DNA of 64,000 nucleotides from an uncultured Anaerosolibacter sp. (GTDB lineage: Bacteria > Bacillota_A > Clostridia > Peptostreptococcales > Thermotaleaceae): NCBI GenBank assembly GCA_937948705.1, contig CALECF010000032.1, positions 1 through 64,000 on the forward strand. Reading direction: 5' to 3'. Shown one piece after another: positions 3,682-48,036 of this stretch. The notes beneath the pieces were generated by a model, which saw nothing but the letters and a program-made list of their open reading frames with translations, was not told the origin of the DNA and did not search any database. Each line of letters opens with the position of its first letter. Position 1 is the first letter of the stretch. Position numbers and translations under genes: made by a program.

Positions 3682-3787
3682 CATCTATCAAGAGTGGTGG
3701 AGGGACTGGCCCTATGAAACCCGGCAACCGGCATTTTTTTATAAGCACGGTGCTAAATCCTGCAGAATTTATTCTGGGAGATAGTTA
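3682..3787 (+). promoter_or_regulatory. SAM-I (S-box) riboswitch aptamer, orphan
   Basis: The S-box core is plain: CTATC closes P1, followed by AAGAGTGGTGGAGGGACTGG, CCTATGAAACCCGGCAACC, then the internal GCACGGTGCTAAATCC element and the closing GATAG. P1 pairs CTATC (3685-3689) with GATAG (3780-3784). The aptamer senses S-adenosylmethionine and normally controls methionine or SAM genes. Here no such gene follows: the next 260 bases hold a terminator and a hairpin repeat, and the next gene is on the other strand. Confidence 0.93.
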
Positions 3788-3828: not shown

Positions 3829-4028
3829 ATATAAGATAGGAAAGTTCTGCTTTCCTATCTTATATAAAAAAGGGGTTGTAGGGGATGAAATCCCCTGCCC
3901 GCCTTCAGGAAGGTGCTCAGGCTGCAGAGCAGCCGTCGAAGGAAACCTAGGGTTTCCTAGGGAAAACAAATTGCTGCTAGGCAACTTTGTTCTGTTTAAA
4001 GTACATATAAGAATATTTTTTGTACTTT
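3824..4028 (+). repeat. Dispersed multi-hairpin repeat, copy A
   Basis: Five successive hairpins: a perfect 21-bp stem (3824-3844 with 3850-3870), AGGGGAT/ATCCCCT (3880-3896), GGCTGC/GCAGCC (3920-3934), AGGAAACC/GGTTTCCT (3940-3958) and AACAAATTGC with GCAACTTTGTT (3965-3991), followed by AAAGTACA/TGTACTTT (3998-4028). Copy B at 47881-48036 shares the connecting sequences in inverted orientation while the stems change in a compensating way. An 80-codon open frame through this element is not considered a gene. Confidence 0.85.
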
Positions 4029-5895: not shown

Positions 5896-6319
5896 GCTTT
5901 TGGCGTGTTCTGAGGAAACCACCTATGGAGTACGCAGATAGGCTCAATATCCAAGGAGTGAAGGCAAGAGCGGCAGTGAGAACAAGGTAATTTTTTATGG
6001 GAATAAAATACGAGAATCCATATAGCGGACCAAAGCAGAGAAGGACAATAACAGAATATGTGCTATACAAGATTGAACGAGGAAAATTAGAGCCAATAAT
6101 GTAGGCCATCAAGCCAGCGGCCCAATAGAGGGATGTGGCTATGTTGAATAGTTTTTTCCCCTGCCAGCCCATAACGCCACTGGAAAATATCCATGTCAGT
6201 AGAAATGTAAGGCTCATAAGGATACCCATAAGGGTTGGTGGAGCATTCCATATAAATTGGTTGAAGTTCATAAGAATTGAAAATATTCCACAAATAAAAA
6301 TTAAAATAAGACCTATCAT
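5891..6319 (-). CDS. Small integral membrane protein, family unknown
   Basis: About 142 residues from the ATG at 6319 (an in-frame TTG ten codons upstream is less likely because AGGAG and GGAACGG lie between the two). Four or five hydrophobic segments are visible: LILIFICGIFSIL, MGILMSLTFLLTWIF, ATSLYWAAGLMAYIIG, YSVIVLLCFGPLYGFSY and YLVLTAALAFTPWILSL. The tail is basic. No family is recognised. Confidence 0.6.
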   Translation of the reverse strand: MIGLILIFICGIFSILMNFNQFIWNAPPTLMGILMSLTFLLTWIFSSGVMGWQGKKLFNIATSLYWAAGLMAYIIGSNFPRSILYSTYSVIVLLCFGPLYGFSYFIPIKNYLVLTAALAFTPWILSLSAYSIGGFLRTRQKQ

Positions 6320-10907: not shown

Positions 10908-11495
10908 ATGGAAAAGCAAGTAGATGCTAGGGGAATGAACTGCCCTAAGCCGGTCATTGAGACAAAGAAGCTGCTAGATTCATTGAAGGAAGGCAGTATT
11001 ACCACCATCGTAGATAACGAGGTAGCCAAAGAAAATGTGCTGAAGCTGGCTCAGAGTATGGCCTATAAGGTAGCCGTGAAGGAACAAGAGGGAAATTACT
11101 ATATTCATATCTATAAAGAAGGTGCCCAGAAGGAGACAGGGATGAAACCGATCAATCATAAGGATATGGTCATGTTAATTGGCAGTGAGGTTATGGGAGA
11201 AGGATCCTTTGAACTAGGAAAGGTATTGATGAAGGGGTTCATCTATACCTTAACAGAGAGCAAGCCTTATCCAAAGGCCTTATTATTTGTGAATTCCGGT
11301 GTCAGGTTGACCACAGAGGGATCAGAGGTCATCGGCTATTTAAGACAACTGGAGGGCGAAGGGGTAGAGATCCTGTCCTGTGGGACTTGTTTGGATTATT
11401 TTAATTTAAAAAATAAACTATTGGTTGGCGGTGTGTCCAACATGTACACCATTGTTGAGAAGATGAATGGTGCTAAGAATACAATAAAGATTTAG
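10908..11495 (+). CDS. yedF: Sulfurtransferase-like selenium metabolism protein YedF
   Basis: 195 residues. Residues 1-70 are a TusA/SirA domain with the CPKP active-site motif (DARGMNCPKPVIETKKLL), and residues 80-195 a DsrE-like domain with CGTCLDYF. This two-domain form is the YedF selenium protein found in selenium-using anaerobes, thought to move selenium or sulfur in selenocysteine or selenouridine synthesis. It is followed 9 bases later by DUF3343, its usual partner, which suggests the organism makes selenoproteins. Confidence 0.9.
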   Translation: MEKQVDARGMNCPKPVIETKKLLDSLKEGSITTIVDNEVAKENVLKLAQSMAYKVAVKEQEGNYYIHIYKEGAQKETGMKPINHKDMVMLIGSEVMGEGSFELGKVLMKGFIYTLTESKPYPKALLFVNSGVRLTTEGSEVIGYLRQLEGEGVEILSCGTCLDYFNLKNKLLVGGVSNMYTIVEKMNGAKNTIKI

Positions 11496-11504
11496 AGGGA
11501 AGCC

Positions 11505-11765
11505 ATGTTAGATAAAGAATTTTATGTGATTGCTTTTGATTCAACCCATTATGCCATGAAAGCAGAAAAGTTACTAAAGAGTAAATTTCAAATAGAGATG
11601 ATTCCTACCCCTAGAGAAATTAGTGCCAGTTGTGGTCTATCCATTAAGTTTTCAAAGATCCTATTTGATGGCATTATGGATGCCCTTGAGGAGGACCAGG
11701 GAACCTATAAGGTGTTCCTTGTAGAAAAAATTGAGAACGGCAGGCAGGTAACAAAAGTAACTTAA
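11505..11765 (+). CDS. DUF3343 family putative Se/S carrier protein
   Basis: 86 residues. FDSTHYAMKAEKLLK, IPTPREISASCGLSIKF and a C-terminal LVEKIENG are typical of DUF3343, a small ferredoxin-fold protein with one conserved Cys (SCGL) found beside yedF and selenium genes. It probably shuttles sulfur or selenium, an inference from context. Same operon as yedF. Confidence 0.85.
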   Translation: MLDKEFYVIAFDSTHYAMKAEKLLKSKFQIEMIPTPREISASCGLSIKFSKILFDGIMDALEEDQGTYKVFLVEKIENGRQVTKVT

Positions 11766-25262: not shown

Positions 25263-25910
25263 ATGGATAAAGAAGCTTTATTTAAAGAAATTCGTGAATC
25301 CCTGGTGGAGATGGAAGAAGAAAAGGTTATCGAACTATGCGAAAAAACTTTGGAACTCAATATCCTTGCCTATGAAACAATAACAAATGCACTCATCCCT
25401 GGAATGGACGAGGTATCTAGGCTTTATGAGGAAGAAGAATACTTTCTGCCTGAAGTTTTGATTTGCTCTGATGTGATGAATGCAGGTTTGGATATTGTAA
25501 AACCTCATTTAGATAAAAGCAATATGAGAGAGCCTATAAAGGTAGTGATGGGCGTTGTAGAAGGTGATACCCATGATATTGGAAAGAATCTTGTTCGGAT
25601 TATGATGGAAGCAGCGGGCATGGAAGTCTATGATTTAGGCAGGGACGTGCCACTGGAGAGCTTCATTGAGAAAGCAGAAGAGGTAAACGCTGACTTGATT
25701 GGTATGTCAACATTGATGACTACCACCATGGATGGAATGAAGACGGTTATTGACCGACTAACAGACAGAAATATAAGAAATAAATATAAAATCCTTGTAG
25801 GTGGAGGACCAATTTCCCAAAATTTTGCCGATAGAATTGGTGCAGACTTATATACAAAGGATGCTAGTGAAGCAGTAAGAAGAGTAAAAGAAATATTTGG
25901 GAGGGCATAA
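25263..25910 (+). CDS. Corrinoid (B12-binding) methyl-carrier protein, MtaC/MtbC-like
   Basis: 215 residues. The helical cap domain (about 1-85, IPGMDEVSRLYEEEEYFLPE) is followed by a Rossmann B12 domain (about 90-215) with the lower-ligand motif DTHDIG (DxHxxG), the STLMTT loop and the GGGP loop. It carries a methyl group on cobalt between methyltransferases. It opens a tight operon with three UroD-type methyltransferases and a corrinoid activator. The methyl donor is not known. Confidence 0.92.
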   Translation: MDKEALFKEIRESLVEMEEEKVIELCEKTLELNILAYETITNALIPGMDEVSRLYEEEEYFLPEVLICSDVMNAGLDIVKPHLDKSNMREPIKVVMGVVEGDTHDIGKNLVRIMMEAAGMEVYDLGRDVPLESFIEKAEEVNADLIGMSTLMTTTMDGMKTVIDRLTDRNIRNKYKILVGGGPISQNFADRIGADLYTKDASEAVRRVKEIFGRA

Positions 25911-25912
25911 AA

Positions 25913-26968
25913 ATGAAGATCAGACAGGATATCTTAACACCAAAGGAAAGATTATTAGCCTTCCTAACAGGAAAACCTCTAGATAGAATTCTTTGTATGC
26001 CCATTGTAACCAGTAATGCAGCCCATCTTATCGGAAAAACCGTAAAAGAATTTCAATTAGAAGGCAGAGTGATGGCGGATTCTTATATTGCAGCCTTCGA
26101 TCGATTTGGCTACGATTTAAATTATCTTTTTACAAACTGTTCTTTTATCGCGGAAGCTATGGGTCAGGAGCTTGTCTATTCAGAAGATGAACCTGCAAAT
26201 TGTGAGAATCCAGCGGTGCAGTCAATGGAAGACTTAAGTAAAATTAAGGTTGCAGAAAAAAACGATGGAAAGTTTCCTGTTTTCTATGAAGCCCTGGATA
26301 TTTTAAACAAAGAAATCGGGGATAAAATATTTAATGCTGTATGTTTTTCAGGGCCTGTGTCTACGGCGGCTACCTTAAGAGGTACGGAAGATTTTGCTAG
26401 AGATACCTATGCAAATCCAGAATTATGTCACGCCCTTCTTAGAATGGCCACAGACAGCTGTAAAAGTTTCATGAAGGAAGTGGCGGCAAAGGGAGCCATT
26501 CCCATCATTCTAGAGCCTATTGCTTCAGGTAGTATCTTCAGCCCTAAAATGTTTAGCAAATTTGCATTTCCATATATTAAAGAACTTATTGACTATGGCC
26601 ACGAATTAGGTGCAGCGGTGCCACTGCATATCTGTGGAAAGACCCACAAGATTGTGGATCAGATGACAGAAACGGGAACGGATATTGTCAGTCTTGACAT
26701 ATGCGATTTAGCAGTAGCTAGAGAGAAAGTAGCTGGAAGAGCTGTGTTGCTGGGAAATATTGCTCCTGCAGATGAATTGTTATTTGGCCCGATAGAAAGA
26801 ATTCATGAAGCGTGTAAGAATGCCATGGATATTATGGAAGGCTATACCCCAGGATTTATTTTGGCTTCTGGCTGTGAAATTCCAACAAAGGTTCCATTCG
26901 AGCATATTGATGCCATGATGGATGCAGCGAGAAGCTATGGGGCCTATGATTATGCAAAGACTGAGTAA
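25913..26968 (+). CDS. UroD/MtaA-family methyltransferase 1
   Basis: 351 residues of the uroporphyrinogen-decarboxylase fold used by corrinoid:thiol methyltransferases. It starts TPKERLLAFLTGKPLDRI; the zinc-binding set is HICGKT plus the downstream SGCEIP. These enzymes move methyl groups to or from a corrinoid protein, with zinc activating a thiol or other acceptor. It starts two bases after the corrinoid gene. Donor or acceptor role cannot be decided. Confidence 0.88.
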   Translation: MKIRQDILTPKERLLAFLTGKPLDRILCMPIVTSNAAHLIGKTVKEFQLEGRVMADSYIAAFDRFGYDLNYLFTNCSFIAEAMGQELVYSEDEPANCENPAVQSMEDLSKIKVAEKNDGKFPVFYEALDILNKEIGDKIFNAVCFSGPVSTAATLRGTEDFARDTYANPELCHALLRMATDSCKSFMKEVAAKGAIPIILEPIASGSIFSPKMFSKFAFPYIKELIDYGHELGAAVPLHICGKTHKIVDQMTETGTDIVSLDICDLAVAREKVAGRAVLLGNIAPADELLFGPIERIHEACKNAMDIMEGYTPGFILASGCEIPTKVPFEHIDAMMDAARSYGAYDYAKTE

Positions 26969-27968
26969 AATAACAGAAAAAGAAAGACTTCTTAAGGTGC
27001 TGAAGGGAGAGGCGGTTGACCGCCCTCCTGTTATTTGTCCTGGGGGAATGATGAATGCCAGTGTCACAGAGGTCTTAGAAGATATAAAGATGAACCACAA
27101 TATACACTTAGAGGCGATGGTAGCGGCAGCCAAAGCCGTTCATGGGATTACTGGATTTGAGAACTATGGGGTACCCTTTGATATGACAGTGGAGTCAGAG
27201 CCATTAGGTGTTAAGATTGATGTGGGAAATAAGCTGATTGAGCCAAGAGTAATAGAATACAATCATCAGCCCATCGAAGACATTATACAGAGCTACAGGG
27301 TGAGTCCCAAAGATGAAGAAAGAATGGGAATCACGATTCGGGCAGTTGAAAAATTAAAAAATGATGAAATCCCTGTCATCGGAAATATTACAGGGCATAT
27401 CAGTACGGCTACTTCTGTCATAGATCCCTTGGTCGCATTAAGAATGCTGAGAAAAGACCCCGATAAAATCTATCGTTTCTTTCAATTTATTCATGATTAT
27501 TCCAAGGAATATGCAATAGAGATGATTAGGGCAGGCGCTGATGTCATTGCCATTTCAGACCCTACAGCCACAGGGGAAATCCTAGGGGCAAAGAATTTTG
27601 AAAGGTTCGTTATACCTTTCTATAAAGATATGATTGCTACTATTCATCAGATGAATGTGCCAGTAATCATTCATATCTGTGGAAACGCCAATACGATCAT
27701 TGATGGTTTGAATGACACCGGTGTAGATGCGGTGAGCTTTGATTCTATGGTGAATATGCGCTTTGCGAAGTCAAAACTGACTACCCGTTTGATGGGAAAC
27801 GTAAATACTCAGCTTTTGCATACTGGTGAACAGAGTAAAATATCATCCATCACTCAAAATTGTATAAATTCAGGTGTGGATATTGTCTCACCTGCGTGTG
27901 GGTTGAGCATGGCAACGCCAGTGAACAATCTGCGGACCATGACTGAATTCGTGAAGAGAGGTATCTAG
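26952..27968 (+). CDS. UroD/MtaA-family methyltransferase 2
   Basis: 338 residues from the ATG at 26952 (nine bases after GGGG), overlapping the previous gene by 17 bases; earlier in-frame ATGs are possible. TEKERLLKVLKGEAVDRPPV is the family N-terminus. Metal ligands are HICGNA and SPACGLS. It is related to methyltransferase 1 but clearly diverged, so the pair may act at opposite ends of one methyl-transfer chain. Confidence 0.88.
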   Translation: MQRLSKITEKERLLKVLKGEAVDRPPVICPGGMMNASVTEVLEDIKMNHNIHLEAMVAAAKAVHGITGFENYGVPFDMTVESEPLGVKIDVGNKLIEPRVIEYNHQPIEDIIQSYRVSPKDEERMGITIRAVEKLKNDEIPVIGNITGHISTATSVIDPLVALRMLRKDPDKIYRFFQFIHDYSKEYAIEMIRAGADVIAISDPTATGEILGAKNFERFVIPFYKDMIATIHQMNVPVIIHICGNANTIIDGLNDTGVDAVSFDSMVNMRFAKSKLTTRLMGNVNTQLLHTGEQSKISSITQNCINSGVDIVSPACGLSMATPVNNLRTMTEFVKRGI

Positions 27969-27974
27969 CAATAG

Positions 27975-29702
27975 ATGATACAAGTACATTTTATAAATGA
28001 AGATATACGAGTTGAAGCACACGAGGGCGAGAAATTATCTGATTGTATTCGTAAAGCGGGGCTAGCCCTAGAAACACCCTGCAACTGCATTGGCATTTGT
28101 GGAAAGTGCAGGGTAAGAGCCCGGGGAGATTTATCTCCACCAGCGGCAGAGGAACAAACACTCCTTATGGGGCAGGATGGAATTCGGCTGGCATGTCTAG
28201 CCAAGGTAAGAGGAAATGTGGAGATAGAGCTGCTCCAGGCAAAGAATGAACTGAAAACGATTAATAGGGGATACGCTGTAGAAGTTAAAGTGAACAGCGC
28301 TATTCATCGTGTAGAACTGCCTAAGATAAACAAAAGAAATCCTATGCCCTATGGTGAATATGTAGGATACCCAATTGAATCTATGGCTTTGTATGAGAAG
28401 ATTGGAAACGTTGAAAAAGGGCAAAGGGAAAGAATCTTTGGGGTCATATCGGAGAACCGTTTGATAGATATTGGAGAAAATTTGAAGGAGATATTGGGCA
28501 TTGCAGTTGATATAGGCACCACAGGGATTTCTGCATACCTTGTAGATCTTGAAACCGGACAGGTGTTGAATAAGGTATCTTGCTTAAATCCACAGTCTCA
28601 ATATGGTGGAGATGTGTTAACACGTATCAGCTATTGCATGGAGAATGCAGATGGCTCAAAACGCCTCAAGGAATTGATGCTAGACTGTATGAATGAGGTT
28701 GTATTGAAACTATTAGGGAGCCAGCATCCGAAAGATGCGGTATATCAAATGATGATTGCAGGGAATACAACGATGCTGCACTTGTTTTTGGGTATTGATC
28801 CCACCACAATTGCCAAGGCACCGTACCGCCCTATTTTCCTACAAAAAGTAGATATCCAGCCAGAAATCGTATCCATTGATATAAACAGAGCTGGAAATAT
28901 AACCTTGTTACCTTCTGCGTCGGGCTATGTGGGAGCCGATATCCTCGCGGGTATTGCTGCGACGGCCTTTGATGAAAAGAAAGACACGAGTATATTTATA
29001 GATATAGGAACAAATGGAGAAATTGTTGCAATTGCAAACGGAAGAATGTCAGCCACATCGACGGCAGCCGGACCAGCCCTAGAGGGTATGAACATATCTT
29101 GTGGTTGTCGGGCGGAAGAGGGAGCAATCGATTCTTTTTATATAGATGAGAATGATGAGATGCATTATTCTACCATCGGAGATCTACCTCCAAAGGGTAT
29201 TTGCGGAAGCGGCCTTATCGACATCGCTGCTGCTCTGGTACGAAAGGGAATGATCCTCCCCAATGGGAAGCTGAATCCTGCATTGAGTGATCACATGCAA
29301 GGAAGACTTCAGGATAAAAAGCTTTATATTACCGATGGGATTTATATTTCACAAAAAGACATCCGACAAATACAACTGGCAAAAGGAGCCATTGCCACGG
29401 GGGTGACCATGCTATTAAAAGAGATGGGTGTATCCATTGGAGAAGTCAAGGAAGCTGTGATTGCCGGGGCCTTCGGCTATCACTTAAACCCGGAGAATAT
29501 CCAGGAGATAGGACTCATACCAAAGGGATTTAAGGGCACCGTTTCATTTGTTGGAAATGCATCGGTAGAAGGGGCTAGACTTGCCTTAATCAACAAGGCA
29601 ATGTTAGAGAAAATGTCATCCTTCAGAGACCAAATAGAGGTATTAGAGCTTTCAATGAAGGAAGATTTTCAGGCTTATTTTATGAAGGAATTAAACTTTT
29701 AA
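27975..29702 (+). CDS. Reductive activator of corrinoid proteins (RACo-like, ASKHA ATPase with 2Fe-2S domain)
   Basis: 575 residues. The N-terminal ferredoxin domain has the cysteine set CNCIGICGKC ... LACLAKV for a [2Fe-2S] cluster. A linker leads to a large ASKHA ATPase part with AVDIGTTGISAYLVDL, IDIGTNGEIVAI and GSGLIDIAAALV. RACo proteins use ATP hydrolysis to drive electrons onto inactive Co(II) corrinoid and restore Co(I). Six bases separate it from the preceding gene. Confidence 0.92.
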   Translation: MIQVHFINEDIRVEAHEGEKLSDCIRKAGLALETPCNCIGICGKCRVRARGDLSPPAAEEQTLLMGQDGIRLACLAKVRGNVEIELLQAKNELKTINRGYAVEVKVNSAIHRVELPKINKRNPMPYGEYVGYPIESMALYEKIGNVEKGQRERIFGVISENRLIDIGENLKEILGIAVDIGTTGISAYLVDLETGQVLNKVSCLNPQSQYGGDVLTRISYCMENADGSKRLKELMLDCMNEVVLKLLGSQHPKDAVYQMMIAGNTTMLHLFLGIDPTTIAKAPYRPIFLQKVDIQPEIVSIDINRAGNITLLPSASGYVGADILAGIAATAFDEKKDTSIFIDIGTNGEIVAIANGRMSATSTAAGPALEGMNISCGCRAEEGAIDSFYIDENDEMHYSTIGDLPPKGICGSGLIDIAAALVRKGMILPNGKLNPALSDHMQGRLQDKKLYITDGIYISQKDIRQIQLAKGAIATGVTMLLKEMGVSIGEVKEAVIAGAFGYHLNPENIQEIGLIPKGFKGTVSFVGNASVEGARLALINKAMLEKMSSFRDQIEVLELSMKEDFQAYFMKELNF

Positions 29703-29714
29703 CTGAGGTGGACT

Positions 29715-30659
29715 ATGATTAAAATTGATGTGGTTTCAGGATTTTTAGGGGCAGGAAAGACAACCCTCATTAAAAAACTGTTGAAGTCTTATGAGAATGA
29801 ACGGGTAGTACTCATAGAAAATGAATTTGGTGAAATTGGAATCGACGGTGATTTGGTAGAGCGAGAGGGTTTTGAAGTCTTTGAAATTTCCAGTGGATGT
29901 ATTTGCTGTATTATGCAAAAAGACTTCATAGGGATGCTCACAAGGGTGATTGATGAGTTTAAACCTGAACGTATTATTATTGAGCCAACTGGAATTAGTA
30001 TCTTAAGTGATATCATAGAAATATTAAATAAACCTAATTTTAAGGAAACCTGTAGTATTGATTCATTGGTTACAATCATTGATAGTATGAACTACCTAGC
30101 ACAATGCGAGGTTTTTGGAGAATTTTTTGAAGATCAGATTGCCCACGCATCTTCTTTGGTGTTGAGCAAGAGCCAATTTATCTCAGAAGAGAAAATAAAG
30201 GAAATCATAACCTCCGTAAGACAGTTAAATCAGACTGCACCCATTGTTACAGCCAGTTGGGAACATATGTCTCTAGAGGATGTTAAAGCTCTTTTGGTGG
30301 GGGACTTAACGGTGGAGTTCAAGGAACTGATTCATCCAACCTATAGACCCTGTAGAGAAAATGAATTTGATACCTTTGCCATTGAAACCTCTGAAAAATA
30401 TACAGTGGAGGATGTAGAAGAGATACTAAATGAGCTGAAGAACCCTCTTTATGGAAACGTTCTAAGGGGGAAGGGATTCTTAAAAGGCCCAGGATATTAT
30501 CTTGATTTTAGTTATACCAATGGACAATTCAATATCCATAAGACCGATCATAAATCCAGTGGAAAGCTTTGTTTGATCGGTATGAAGCTTGATGAGAAAG
30601 AACTGAAGCGTTTATGGAAAGTCAAAGAGGGGGGGATATTGAATTGGTTGACATTTTAG
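29715..30659 (+). CDS. CobW/COG0523-type metal-trafficking GTPase
   Basis: 314 residues, G3E GTPase family. Walker A is GFLGAGKTTLIKKLL, the metal site is SGCICC (CxCC), and IIIEPTGIS matches the EPTG switch. The C-terminal CobW_C region is present. These proteins deliver Zn, Co or similar metals to client enzymes. In this operon plausible clients are the zinc-dependent UroD-type methyltransferases or the corrinoid system; this is inference. Confidence 0.87.
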   Translation: MIKIDVVSGFLGAGKTTLIKKLLKSYENERVVLIENEFGEIGIDGDLVEREGFEVFEISSGCICCIMQKDFIGMLTRVIDEFKPERIIIEPTGISILSDIIEILNKPNFKETCSIDSLVTIIDSMNYLAQCEVFGEFFEDQIAHASSLVLSKSQFISEEKIKEIITSVRQLNQTAPIVTASWEHMSLEDVKALLVGDLTVEFKELIHPTYRPCRENEFDTFAIETSEKYTVEDVEEILNELKNPLYGNVLRGKGFLKGPGYYLDFSYTNGQFNIHKTDHKSSGKLCLIGMKLDEKELKRLWKVKEGGILNWLTF

Positions 30660-31477
30660 TGGACAGTATCAATGATACGGTTCGTGTAGTCCCTATCCTT
30701 TTTCTGCTTTTTTTATTTGTTGATGTATTCATGCTGAAGGTGAATAGGGAGAATCATCTTGTTGATAGACTATCGCAATATGATGTTCTAGGAGGGGGAC
30801 TTTTGGGCATCATACCTCAGTGTGGAATTCCCGTAGGATTCGCAAAGCTCTACGCCAATGGACATGTCACTTTAGGAGTCCTTTTTGCCATATTCCTTTC
30901 TAGTTCCGATGAAGCGTTGATTATTATAGGCGCCCATCCAGATCAGATTGGATTTGTTCTAAAAATAGTGACGTTGAAGATTCTCATTGGTATTGCAGTG
31001 GGGTACATTATAAATGGAGTGATTAAGGAAAAGAGAAATCGTATGAAAGGCTGTGGATCAGATTGCAGTTGTCCAAGATGTTCCCCAAATAGGAGTATAT
31101 TCATCAGCAGCTTGCTTCACACCCTAAAAATATCTCTGTTCCTAATATTGACGGTTTTTCTTCTAAATCTTGGTCTTGAAAGAATCGGGGAAGAGGGTCT
31201 TAGTACTCTTCTGGGGAAAAATACATGGATGCAGCCTATTTATGGGGCCTTTATAGGGGCAATTCCAAGTTGTATGTCATCTGTGGTGTTAGCAGAGGGA
31301 TATTTGCAAGGTGCGGTAGGATTGGGCGCGTTGATTAGTGGATTATGCGCGAATACAGGCTATGGAATTCTTGTGGTATTAAAGGAGCTCCCTTTTAAAA
31401 AAGCCATGGGTGTTATTTTCCTGCTTTTGACGATTAGCATTGTCATTGGAGAAATTATCTTTGTGATGGGAGGTTGA
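30644..31477 (+). CDS. Predicted heavy-metal permease (ArsP_2 / putative Mn transporter family)
   Basis: About 277 residues from a TTG eight bases after a GAGGGGGG SD; overlaps the GTPase gene by 16 bases. Two matching halves each have four or five helices, with IPQCGIPVGFAKLYANG in the first and IPSCMSSVVLAEGYLQG in the second, a clear inverted duplication. The central cytoplasmic loop holds CGSDCSCPRC, a likely metal ligand cluster. The family is annotated as heavy-metal or manganese export; substrate here is unknown. Confidence 0.8.
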   Translation: MVDILVDSINDTVRVVPILFLLFLFVDVFMLKVNRENHLVDRLSQYDVLGGGLLGIIPQCGIPVGFAKLYANGHVTLGVLFAIFLSSSDEALIIIGAHPDQIGFVLKIVTLKILIGIAVGYIINGVIKEKRNRMKGCGSDCSCPRCSPNRSIFISSLLHTLKISLFLILTVFLLNLGLERIGEEGLSTLLGKNTWMQPIYGAFIGAIPSCMSSVVLAEGYLQGAVGLGALISGLCANTGYGILVVLKELPFKKAMGVIFLLLTISIVIGEIIFVMGG

Positions 31478-31481
31478 TGAC

Positions 31482-32357
31482 ATGGAACATATGGTGGCAT
31501 TCAAATGTGAAGGTGATAACTTGGAGCAAATACCGGAATCAATCATTGCACGGACAGGTATTCGCTTTCCTAAGGCTCATTTAGACCAAGAACAAATGAT
31601 GATCCTTGCAAAAGAGTTAAAGGAATATAAGAAAGACCAGATTGTCAGGATACCTTTCTGCGTCACTGTGGAAGCAGAAGCATTAGGGGGACGGATTAAG
31701 CTTGGAGATGACAAGAGCGGGCCCCGGGTGGATCAATACGTGTTTTTAGATATTGAGGAGCTTGGAAAAATTAAGGAAATTGATTTAAGTAGGGGTAGGA
31801 TAAAAGAAGTATTGGACTCCGTTGAGGGGTTAAGCAGAGAGGATGAAACGGTGGCTCTTAACGTGGAGGGACCTTTTACAATCATCGCATCACTGATAGA
31901 CCCTATGATATTCTATAAGGGAATACGGAAGCATAAGGAAATTGTTGACAAATTCATGAAAATAATCGAAGATAATGTTGTGGCCTATATCCTTGGGGGA
32001 ATAGAGCGGGGAGCAAAAATAATTTCCTATGGGGATCCTGTGGGTTCTTTGGATATTGTAGGACCCAAGGTGTACAAAGAGATCAGTGGACAAACAACCT
32101 ACAATATCTTAAAACGAGTAGAGCCGTTTTTGGATGGAAGAATTGTTCATATTTGTGGAAAAACCTCTACGGCTTTTGATCAGTTAGGCTTTAGTGAGTC
32201 CTATCCAATTGAGGTGGATGAAGAACTTACCTACGGGGAAGCCATTCTCCAGCTGATGAAAAGCAATCAGGAGATTAAATTTATTGGACACACCTGTATC
32301 AAAAAGACACCCTTTAGAATGAAAAAACCTATTGTTTGGAATGTTTGTTTGAAGTAG
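31482..32357 (+). CDS. UroD/MtaA-family methyltransferase 3 (short form)
   Basis: 291 residues, about 50 shorter than its two paralogues because the usual N-terminal ERLLxxLxG segment is replaced by an unrelated start. VEGPFTIIASLIDP, SYGDPVGSLDIVGP and the zinc motif HICGKTS, with a later GHTCIKK, place it in the family. GGGAGG lies 8 bases before the ATG. It may be the substrate-specific or a regulatory member. Confidence 0.8.
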   Translation: MEHMVAFKCEGDNLEQIPESIIARTGIRFPKAHLDQEQMMILAKELKEYKKDQIVRIPFCVTVEAEALGGRIKLGDDKSGPRVDQYVFLDIEELGKIKEIDLSRGRIKEVLDSVEGLSREDETVALNVEGPFTIIASLIDPMIFYKGIRKHKEIVDKFMKIIEDNVVAYILGGIERGAKIISYGDPVGSLDIVGPKVYKEISGQTTYNILKRVEPFLDGRIVHICGKTSTAFDQLGFSESYPIEVDEELTYGEAILQLMKSNQEIKFIGHTCIKKTPFRMKKPIVWNVCLK

Positions 32358-32390
32358 GGTTTTGCTATCGATCCCATTGGAGGTGAAGCA

Positions 32391-33179
32391 ATGGAAGATG
32401 TAAGGCAGAGGGAAAATGGGCAGCAAGGCTGCTGAGGCCCATCCCACGGTGGTGTTGGTCAACACCAAAATGAGAATAGTGAAAACTGTATGGTTTGTGG
32501 TGAGAAGTTGGTATATTTGGAAATTGGCAGGGAATTTCAATGTTTCAAATGCAATGGGTCAGAGATTGGGTATGTATATTGCCCAAATAGCCATTATATT
32601 TGTGATGAATGCCATGGGAAAGAACAGTTTGATGAGATCCTGCACCTGGCATTGACTGTGAGGGGTAAGAATCCCATGGTAAACGCTGAATATATGATGA
32701 AGAAGCTATCGATTCCCATGCTAGGCTGTGAACATGGATGGATTGCGGCGGCATCATTGATGGCAGCCATTCGAAATACAGAGCAGATTAAGATTACCGA
32801 TGAACAGATAAAGGAAGCCTTAAATCGCACAAAAATGCAGGCCATTGGGGCCTATTGCGGGCTAACAGGGATTTGTGGGATCGCCCCAGCCATTGGAGCA
32901 TCTTTTAGTGTGATCTTAGGAGCCGCATGCCCGAAGGATCGAGAAACTGCTGTGACCATGCATGTGGTGGCCCGTGTGATTGAGGCTATAGCCAACGAGG
33001 CAGGGCCATGCTGCTGCAAGAACTTTCTAAGGACATCCCTGAGTTTGGCCTGTGAACTGGTATCGGAGTATCTAAACATACAACTAGCTGATGGTCGGAA
33101 GATCACCTGTGGAGACAGCCATCGGCACCCCCATGGGTGTAGGGAATCGAAATGTAAATATTTCAATCATATCGTATAA
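32391..33179 (+). CDS. DUF5714 protein, probable selenoprotein (in-frame TGA as Sec)
   Basis: About 262 residues if the TGA at 32433-32435 is read as selenocysteine (residue 15, in the context QQGC-U-GPSHGG). The ATG at 32391 has a strong SD (GGAGGTG, 5-base gap). The internal ATG at 32490, in the same frame, has none, and starting there would split the Cys pair CMVC of the zinc ribbon (NCMVCGEKL ... CFKCNG ... CDECHG). The C-terminal DUF5714 domain follows, with GAYCGLTGICGIAP and a Cys/His-rich end. Last gene of the corrinoid operon. Redox or methyl-transfer function is inferred from Cys-Sec and context. Confidence 0.72.
32436..32466 (+). promoter_or_regulatory. Bacterial SECIS-like hairpin
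   Basis: GGTGTT (32451-32456), loop GGTC, AACACC (32461-32466): a perfect 6-bp stem with a GGUC loop 22-25 bases after the TGA. This fits the bacterial SECIS rule of an apical loop 16-37 bases downstream with G at its start, and resembles the AGGUCU loop of E. coli fdhF. Confidence 0.65.
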
Positions 33180-33181
33180 AG

Positions 33182-33213
33182 TAAGCGGGTCTGTGGAGAC
33201 CCGCTTATTTTAA
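33182..33213 (+). terminator. Terminator of the corrinoid operon
   Basis: Perfect TAAGCGGGTCT / AGACCCGCTTA stem followed by TTTTA; it may also serve the convergent lipoprotein gene. Confidence 0.85.
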
Positions 33214-33878: not shown

Positions 33879-35168
33879 ATGAAGACTTATCTTATGAAAT
33901 ATGGGACAGAAGAGGTATCGGTGTCTATACCTGAACAACATCTGCTAGGCATTATCAAAAGCCATAGTGATGATATAAAGAAACATGAAGAAGAGGTGAT
34001 ACTAGATGCATTACAAAATCCCATTGAAAGCCCAAGGCTGGGGGAGATTGTATCACCAGGAGAGAAAATTTGTATTGTGATTTCAGATATTACCCGGGCA
34101 TGGCAGAAGATGGACTATTATGTACCCTATATCATCGAGGCGTTAAACCAGGCAGGGATTGAAGATGAAGATATTGTATTTCTTTGTGCAACAGGATCTC
34201 ATCGAGGCCAGACCAAGGAAGAACATGAGATCCTCTTAGGGGAAAAACTGAGCAAAAGATTTCAAATCATTGACCATGATTGTAAAGATGAAGATAACAT
34301 GATTTATGTGGGAACCACCAGCTTTGGAACCCCTGTGAAGGTGAATAAGATCGCCATGGACTGCGACCATATCCTATTGACTGGTGCCGTGGTGTATCAT
34401 GATTTGGCTGGTTGGGGCGGCGGTAAAAAGTCAATTCTTCCAGGAATCAGTGCCTATGAGTCTATCATGGAGAATCACTCCCTATCTCTAAATCCCATGA
34501 TGGGAACTGGATTAAATCCAAAGGTACGATGCGGCAATGCGTTGGATAATCCGTTACACTTAGATATGGTGGAGGCAGCCGATTTCGTAAAGCCATCCTT
34601 TCTATTCAATGTGATTATGGATGATCAAGGCAATATCGAGAAGGCAGTATCGGGGCACTATTTGAAAGCCCATGAGGTAGGGCAACAACTAGTAGAGGCA
34701 ATGGATGGTGTGAACATTTATAAAGAAGCAGATTTGGTTATTTCATCGGCGGGTGGTTATCCAAAGGATATAGAATTATACCAAGCGTCAAAAGCGTTGA
34801 TTAATGCTACAAACGCTGTAAAGGAAGGCGGCAGCATCATTCTCCTTAGCCAGTGTATAGAAGGTTTTGGACATGATGAAGTGGAACAAATGATAGTAAA
34901 TTATAACAGCAATCAAGAACGAGAGGCTGCACTGCGGGAGATTTATACTGTAGCAAAATATACAGGCTATCTGATTTCAGAGATTGCAGCCGCCTATGAT
35001 GTCATCTTGGTATCCCAAATGCGCCCTAACACATTGGAAAAAATAAATATTAAGATTGTAGCCACCGTAGAAGATGCATTAGAGATTGTTTATGCAAAAA
35101 ATGGCATGGAATTGCAAACCTATCTAATGCCATATGGTGCCAATACATTGCCCAAAATGAAAGAATAA
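33879..35168 (+). CDS. LarA-like nickel-dependent racemase
   Basis: 429 residues. ISDITRAW, CATGSHRGQTKEEH, and HDLAGWGGGKKSILPGIS match the nickel-pincer enzyme LarA, including the lysine that holds the pincer cofactor and the two histidines of the active site. LarA-type enzymes racemise lactate or other 2-hydroxy acids. The cofactor genes (larB, larC, larE) are not in the window. GAGGGGGGAAG precedes the ATG. Confidence 0.85.
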   Translation: MKTYLMKYGTEEVSVSIPEQHLLGIIKSHSDDIKKHEEEVILDALQNPIESPRLGEIVSPGEKICIVISDITRAWQKMDYYVPYIIEALNQAGIEDEDIVFLCATGSHRGQTKEEHEILLGEKLSKRFQIIDHDCKDEDNMIYVGTTSFGTPVKVNKIAMDCDHILLTGAVVYHDLAGWGGGKKSILPGISAYESIMENHSLSLNPMMGTGLNPKVRCGNALDNPLHLDMVEAADFVKPSFLFNVIMDDQGNIEKAVSGHYLKAHEVGQQLVEAMDGVNIYKEADLVISSAGGYPKDIELYQASKALINATNAVKEGGSIILLSQCIEGFGHDEVEQMIVNYNSNQEREAALREIYTVAKYTGYLISEIAAAYDVILVSQMRPNTLEKINIKIVATVEDALEIVYAKNGMELQTYLMPYGANTLPKMKE

Positions 35169-47880: not shown

Positions 47881-48036
47881 AGCGTCTCCGACGCTTTCGC
47901 TAGGAAACCCTAGGTTTCCTTCGACGACAGCAAAGCTGTCTGAGCACCTTCCTAAATTCGGGCAGGGGATTTCATCCCCTACAACCCCTGTTTTTTATAT
48001 GATGGGAAAGTAGAACTTTCCCATCATATAAAAAAA
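47881..48036 (-). repeat. Dispersed multi-hairpin repeat, copy B (inverted relative to A)
   Basis: Read on the minus strand it gives, in copy A order, a 19-bp stem (47992-48010 with 48016-48034), AGGGGAT/ATCCCCT (47964-47980), GACAGC/GCTGTC (47926-47940), AGGAAACC/GGTTTCCT (47902-47920) and AGCGTC/GACGCT (47881-47895). The linkers GGGGTTGTAGGGGATGAAAT and AGGAAGGTGCTCAG are shared with copy A. The GACAGC stem replaces GGCTGC, and ATATGATGGGAAAG replaces ATAAGATAGGAAAG, with both arms changed together. Confidence 0.85.

Follow-up and report, generated by a model that had tools for sequence, protein, structure and literature searches.

An in-frame UGA almost certainly read as selenocysteine in a short MbdU-type gene of Anaerosolibacter

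Could the TGA that interrupts the reading frame at the beginning of a DUF5714 gene be a codon for selenocysteine (Sec) rather than a stop? This question is raised by the last of eight co-directional genes (25263-33179), separated by overlaps or gaps of no more than 33 nt, in a contig of an uncultured Anaerosolibacter sp. The whole stretch of DNA analysed, 64,000 nucleotides long, is called the window here. According to the original prediction, the gene encodes a hidden selenoprotein, in which codon 15 is decoded as Sec with the help of a SECIS hairpin. The features that bear on this prediction are listed in Table 1.

Table 1. Location of the candidate selenoprotein gene, its elements and other relevant features in the window.
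Feature	Position	Strand	Basis or details
Selenium-metabolism protein YedF	10908..11495	+	TIGR03527, 238.6 bits, cut-off 110
Se_S_carrier protein	11505..11765	+	PF11823, 76.7 bits
Corrinoid (B12-binding) protein, operon gene 1	25263..25910	+	PF02310, PF02607
MtaA/CmuA-type methyltransferase (URO-D)	25913..26968	+	Profile matches
MtaA-type methyltransferase (URO-D)	26922..27968	+	Profile matches
RACo/AcsV-type corrinoid reductive activase	27975..29702	+	Pfam RACo domains; NF040756 below cut-off
CobW-type GTPase/metallochaperone	29715..30659	+	PF02492, PF07683
ArsP_2-type heavy-metal/arsenic permease	30614..31477	+	NF037962, 171 bits, cut-off 100
Short URO-D/MtaA-like protein	31482..32357	+	Profile matches
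Shine-Dalgarno GGAGGTG of the favoured start	32379..32385	+	Sequence
Putative short MbdU-type selenoprotein gene	32391..33179	+	262 residues with predicted Sec15, TAA end
UGA codon 15, predicted to be read as Sec (Cys14-Sec15)	32433..32435	+	41/45 loci; Cys in some homologues
Candidate bacterial SECIS stem-loop, 7 bp, GGUC loop 32457-32460	32450..32467	+	TGGTGTT-GGTC-AACACCA
Zinc-ribbon-like N-terminal part	32487..32615	+	Cys33, Cys36, Cys51, Cys54, Cys64, His68, Cys71, Cys74, His75
DUF5714 domain (PF18978), residues 84-258	32640..33164	+	169.7 bits; helical in AF2 model
Terminator-like operon end: 10-bp perfect inverted repeat, then ATTTTAAT	33183..33206	+	Read directly

The frame that begins at ATG 32391 is open to the TAA at 33177-33179, apart from a single TGA (32433-32435) in the context GGC-TGC-TGA-GGC, which is the Gly-Cys-TGA-Gly at codon 15 that had been described. 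GGAGGTG at 32379-32385 precedes this ATG with a gap of 5 nt, as had also been described. Alternatively, the UGA might be a real stop, and translation might start at the ATG at 32490, which is in frame and would give a 229-residue DUF5714 protein. This ATG encodes Met34, located between Cys33 and Cys36 of the motif Cys33-Met-Val-Cys36. However, there is no Shine-Dalgarno in the sequence upstream of 32490, as the original prediction also held. Moreover, a start at this position would lose Cys33, which is present in at least 90% of 54 aligned sequences, so the upstream reading does restore the CMVC pair, as had been claimed. The other Cys and His residues listed for the zinc-ribbon-like part are invariant in the same sequences, and this part would hold a metal, judging from its Cys/His pattern. 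In addition, a screen of the window retained 25 in-frame TGAs that lie downstream of a start codon, are followed by at least 40 open codons and do not overlap another long ORF to a large extent. Codon 15 of this gene is the only one of them that combines a Shine-Dalgarno-type start with a Cys no more than five residues away.

Is the Cys-UGA pair conserved in homologues, then? Starting from the read-through protein, we scanned GTDB genomes by peptide patterns that each lie to one side of the UGA, and obtained 45 homologous loci, which are 50-85% identical. Cys-UGA occurs in the same position at 41 of them (assigned by hand for L010), 14-20 residues ahead of the first zinc-ribbon motif where measured. 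As for the others, TCA (Ser) replaces UGA in L006 with the hairpin retained, the Cys-UGA region is deleted in L020, L028 reads Cys-Ala-Gly, and L043 apparently has Ala too, beside a run of N. The genomes of these four loci all have SelB, and consequently Sec is not indispensable. The L006 variant (5990-6080 in a Pelotomaculum MAG) is a natural UGA-to-UCA change, that is, either a recent loss of Sec or an assembly error.

A similar picture emerged when 398 genomes were drawn evenly from the phylum; this sample shares some members with the 45-locus set, and the two are not independent. At E <= 1e-30, DUF5714 was matched 48 times, in 43 of these genomes. Among the best 19 matches (E <= 5e-81, 18 genomes), 18 have Cys-UGA: 16 are tabulated with one TGA, while in L059 and L063 the pair lies just outside the aligned part. 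The only exception belongs to the genome of L020. Twelve of the 29 weaker matches (L064-L075) comprise L067 with Cys-UGA at a contig end, eight without such a pair, L064 with an in-frame Cys-Cys and no start codon upstream, and L070 and L071, two distant DUF5714 proteins whose Met-Glu-Cys-Cys N-termini represent the Cys form of the Sec pair. One further weaker match (in G135) is tabulated with a TGA.

The hairpin downstream of the UGA is as perfect as had been predicted, and its GGUC loop (32457-32460) takes up bases 22-25 after the TGA. In the part of PMC13188914 available to us, the bSECIS model is given as an apical loop of 3-9 nt on an upper stem of 4-16 bp, with a G in the first two loop positions, 16-37 nt from UGA to loop and an MFE of no more than -7.5 kcal/mol. 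Compared with the model as given there, the loop has 4 nt (GGUC) and the stem 7 bp, 21 nt separate the UGA and the loop, and the energy of 32433-32480 is -9.4 kcal/mol, all of which lies within the limits of the model. It should be noted that this energy is no better than expected for the composition (z 0.18, with 104 of 200 shuffles as good), and that at least seven Watson-Crick pairs with a GG or GT loop at the right spacing follow 5 of the 2404 TGA trinucleotides in the window, the TGA of codon 15 included. The evidence for the hairpin is comparative, the energy of the single sequence being ordinary.

For this comparison, 42 UGA regions were aligned, and covariation at six stem pairs was tested against 500 shuffles. 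Pairing was found in 89.7% of the stem cells versus a shuffled mean of 75.4%, 40 cells were changed on both sides versus 10.9, and the covariation score was 0.496 versus 0.244; no shuffle reached any of the three values. Two measures are less clear: 41 of the 500 shuffles reach the observed six pairs changed on both sides, and 14 reach the observed 13 further pair types. In 15 of the 42 regions, the outermost pair is not maintained. Relatedness among the sequences inflates the significance derived from shuffles; controls in which the partners were slid out of register retain the relatedness, and all covariation measures drop in them. Finally, 35 of the 41 loci were used to build a covariance model, with the window, its two nearest relatives (L001 and L002) and L035, L038, L041 and L045 left out. 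This model matched the window at 32433-32477 with E=3e-6, and the sole other match had E=2.1.

Database homologues could be read in favour of a stop at codon 15. Among 120 listed of 855 found, 82 have their start inside the Cys33 motif or downstream of it according to a text pattern (P0063 is counted among them, though it starts just before the motif). Another five have Cys-Cys (P0016, P0091, P0097, P0098 and P0103), five have Cys-Trp (P0006, P0010, P0019, P0022 and P0078), and 28 fall in no group. For P0016, P0091 and P0098, the second Cys stands in the Sec column of the alignment, every second row of which was shown. Thus, UGA at 41 of 45 loci and Cys-Cys in other homologues are what was found at codon 15, that is, a conserved UGA with Cys in its place elsewhere, by which selenoproteins are recognised. 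Against a stop, the stretch between the UGA and Cys36 lacks any ATG, GTG or TTG in 26 of the 42 UGA genes, the window's own among the 42, and ATG occurs there in only six. The opposite expectation, that homologues would never extend upstream of the 32490 start, also fails: 39 of the 42 genes have a start codon upstream that is preceded by a Shine-Dalgarno-like motif, and L009, L018 and L032 lack this combination, as counted with a lenient pattern and no shuffled control. With the UGA and the covarying SECIS both conserved, it is very improbable that codon 15 is a true stop.

Could the organism and its relatives insert Sec at all? SelB scored above the cut-off in all of 25 relative genomes drawn from the 45 loci, and tRNA-Sec was found in 24 of them, with 24 matches at 65-75 bits and the next group at no more than 49.6; among 14 control genomes, 2 passed the cut-off for SelB and 5 that for tRNA-Sec. 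Of the genomes drawn from the phylum, all 18 with Cys-UGA (17 of the top group plus that of the fragment L067) have SelB, versus 262 of 398 overall, for which the naive chance is about 0.0005, uncorrected for kinship. Within the window, YedF and the neighbouring Se_S_carrier protein, which we take to be the former DUF3343, were both recovered at 10.9-11.8 kb, where they had been reported. It is hardly credible that the UGA is instead read as tryptophan or by general read-through with no SECIS, as the five Cys-Trp entries might suggest, given that Cys-Trp appears to reflect the genetic code chosen in gene calling (L011 and L014, which P0019 and P0022 match, have UGA in the DNA), that the covarying SECIS, SelB and the Cys-Cys homologues point to Sec, and that UGA terminates 4 of 49 non-overlapping window ORFs of at least 150 aa and is therefore also a stop codon here.

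Based on the conserved UGA, the covariation of the hairpin, the Sec/Cys pairs, the scarcity of downstream starts and the presence of SelB in relatives, the gene at 32391-33179 almost certainly makes a selenium-containing protein, with the in-frame stop read as Sec. The central claim of the original prediction is therefore upheld at the level of sequence comparison. The best explanation overall, and a highly probable one, is a 262-residue protein with Sec15, made via SECIS and SelB, that is a short, single-Sec relative of MbdU. Ribosomes would initiate at ATG 32391, the hairpin 3' of the UGA at 32433 would recruit SelB with Sec-tRNA, and codon 15 would be decoded as Sec beside Cys14; in this organism, SelB would act at this very hairpin. 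The predicted product would consist of a flexible Cys-Sec arm, a zinc-ribbon-like part and a Cys-rich helical DUF5714 core. In the AF2 model, Cys-Sec is located on a low-confidence arm (residues 1-30), which is probably flexible, with a confident core containing many invariant Cys behind it. Outside Cys-Sec and the SECIS, the arm is weakly constrained, since 5 synonymous and 10 amino-acid-changing codons distinguish the window from L001.

Was the selenoprotein really hidden? It was, in the annotation of the short form; the family itself is already catalogued as MbdU (NF045648, "metal-binding double selenoprotein"), which the part of PMC13188914 available to us lists with the motif CU and 2 Sec and credits to Haft and Tolstoy 2025. 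The N-terminal Cys-Sec, the zinc-ribbon-like part and DUF5714 are common to MbdU and the window protein, predicted Sec included, and in both the Cys-Sec precedes DUF5714. The window protein matches NF045648 with 343.3 bits at profile positions 32-268 of 468, below the cut-off of 600, because its frame is closed by the TAA right after DUF5714, without the C-terminal DUF2284 domain and the second Sec. The full form, with DUF5714 and DUF2284, is represented by the relative L015, which scores 784.7 bits. By sequence, the window protein is therefore a short, single-Sec MbdU relative, not MbdU by the curated definition. Its form is common: at 35 of the 41 UGA loci, the frame closes as in the window protein, no more than 21 residues past the HGCR motif (nine of the 35 end at a UGA taken as a stop). 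Among the remaining UGA loci, four continue into a further domain, L030 has a longer tail only, and L045 is frameshifted. The stand-alone form is thus the commonest in the homologue set, yet most of the listed database entries begin downstream of the Sec. With the starts corrected, many anaerobe genomes would gain a selenoprotein, and DUF5714 would acquire a testable selenium-dependent activity. In the literature searched, which did not include the original MbdU paper, we came across no account of either the short single-Sec form or the tail-Sec forms treated below, and no mention of DUF5714.

Other architectures carry additional UGA codons, so that some relatives have two or three in all. In L017, L036 and L040, a C-terminal AhpD/CMD-like domain with Cys-Glu-Pro-UGA is present; the assignment is based on a Pfam match in L017 and partial NCBIfam matches in L017 and L040. 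These three proteins terminate in Cys-Lys-Thr-UGA, with a stop after another 1-3 codons, and the same Cys-Lys-Thr-UGA tail is seen in L030, L045 (frameshifted) and L058. Beyond the stop lies a conserved hairpin, CCTGTTT-(AGGAT, CGGGT or AGGTT)-AAACAGG or a near variant, whose loop contains GG. This hairpin is probably the SECIS for a further Sec, as judged from few and similar sequences, and the fusions L017, L036 and L040 would then be three-Sec proteins. Several database entries show other combinations: P0101 is DUF5714 fused to a TusA domain (PF01206), P0018 is DUF5714 fused to a carboxymuconolactone decarboxylase (PF02627), and P0110 is DUF5714 with an N-terminal extension of no assigned family.

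A kinship of DUF5714 with C_GCAxxG_C_C (PF09719) was also considered and is unsupported. The hhalign probability was 1.2% with 23 aligned sequences (24 in the set, L090 with one Cys being left out) and 8.5% with a poor set of three sequences. The DUF5714 core of L015 scored 22.5 bits for PF09719, below the threshold of 27, and the Pfam search gave no match of the window protein to this family. In the C_GCAxxG_C_C follow-up with 24 loci, a match was found in 9 of 10 genomes.

What, then, could the Cys-Sec pair do in this operon? The genes before it encode a corrinoid protein, MtaA-type methyltransferases, a reductive activase, a CobW-type protein and an ArsP-type permease (Table 1). To our knowledge, an ArsP-type permease has not been paired with a corrinoid-methyltransferase operon elsewhere. 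The terminator-like repeat at 33183-33206 was not among the results of a separate scan of the window. In L001 (Anaerosolibacter carboniphilus) and L002, which are also from Anaerosolibacter, the CobW, permease and MtaA-like genes precede the homologue in the same order. The permease itself has a Cys-rich stretch, GCGSDCSCPRC, and a FeoB_associated match just under the cut-off. After the operon, a LarA-like nickel-pincer racemase gene at 33879-35168 (LarAH10, 494 bits, cut-off 540) is kept in L001 and L002. Elsewhere, the window contains a SAM riboswitch and the Clostridiales-2 small RNA, the latter in two copies (3682-3787, 3864-3946 and 47914-47996).

Among the 45 loci, the neighbourhoods are mixed, with arsenite efflux, cobalt uptake and unrelated genes; the names of neighbours, where unchecked, rest on clustering and reading of the sequences. 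L005, L017 and L027 have ACR3-type arsenite efflux genes no more than 6 kb away, an assignment that was checked for L027. Based on BLAST clustering of the ORFs, MtaA/RACo-type genes are near five loci (L001, L002, L007, L010 and L016), compared with about one expected by chance in a hand estimate, which is suggestive only. Since only 28 of the 45 loci have at least 12 kb of sequence, these neighbour counts are lower bounds. Copies of URO-D at E <= 1e-15 number 0-16 per genome in 16 genomes. With the Sec reading, such operons would link selenium with the chemistry of corrinoids, cobalt and arsenic.

A mobile Cys-Sec arm beside a Cys-rich core, as in the model, would suit the transfer of soft metal(loid)s or of electrons. 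We therefore propose, tentatively, that the pair may serve as a soft-metal(loid) ligand or as a selenolate reductant, which would pass the metal(loid) or electrons to the Cys-rich core, and that this function would serve an operon for corrinoid methyl transfer with a metalloid permease. Handling of metal(loid)s is favoured because some relatives are fused to DUF2284 or AhpD modules like those of arsenite-methyltransferase selenoproteins and because an arsenic-type permease and CobW are adjacent. The original prediction made the protein the redox-active member of the corrinoid operon; the operon is real, whereas the redox role was a guess. Such a role, electron transfer for the reductive activation of the corrinoid protein instead of metal(loid) handling, is the main rival reading and seems unlikely. 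The operon does contain both the corrinoid protein and a RACo-type activase, like genes occur near the five loci named above, CobA genes are found near L007, L010 and L035, and cobalt uptake genes near L007 and L010 (the L007 and L035 members were checked). However, 40 of the 45 loci have no corrinoid methyltransferase or activase in their flanks, as far as clustering and flanks of at least 12 kb at 28 loci can tell, and both fusion types resemble arsenite-methyltransferase selenoproteins. More doubtful still is a specific form of metal(loid) handling, in which the whole operon (25263-33179) would be an organometal(loid) methyl-transfer system: the Cys-Sec arm and core would hold the metal(loid), the corrinoid protein and the three MtaA-like proteins would shift methyl groups to or from it, CobW would act as a metal chaperone, and the ArsP-type permease would move the metal(loid) through the membrane. 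Among the matches listed from the literature on methylarsenicals and corrinoid demethylation, there was nothing on this operon.

Which known systems come closest, apart from MbdU itself? The C-terminus of L015 is matched by the C-terminal DUF2284 part of ArsM_DUF2284_UU (NF041536) with 254.7 bits, a partial match below the cut-off of 575, and the C-terminus of L040 by the C-terminal AhpD part of ArsM_AhpD_UU (NF041537) with 117.5 bits, likewise partial and below the cut-off of 510. These arsenite methyltransferase selenoproteins differ from MbdU, in which no methyltransferase domain was seen, and the window protein has neither of the two C-terminal modules. Another system of organometal biochemistry is the Sec form of HgcA (NF040863) in mercury methylation, for which the available part of PMC13188914 also gives a Cys-Sec (CU) motif. 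HgcA, unlike MbdU, is a corrinoid protein.
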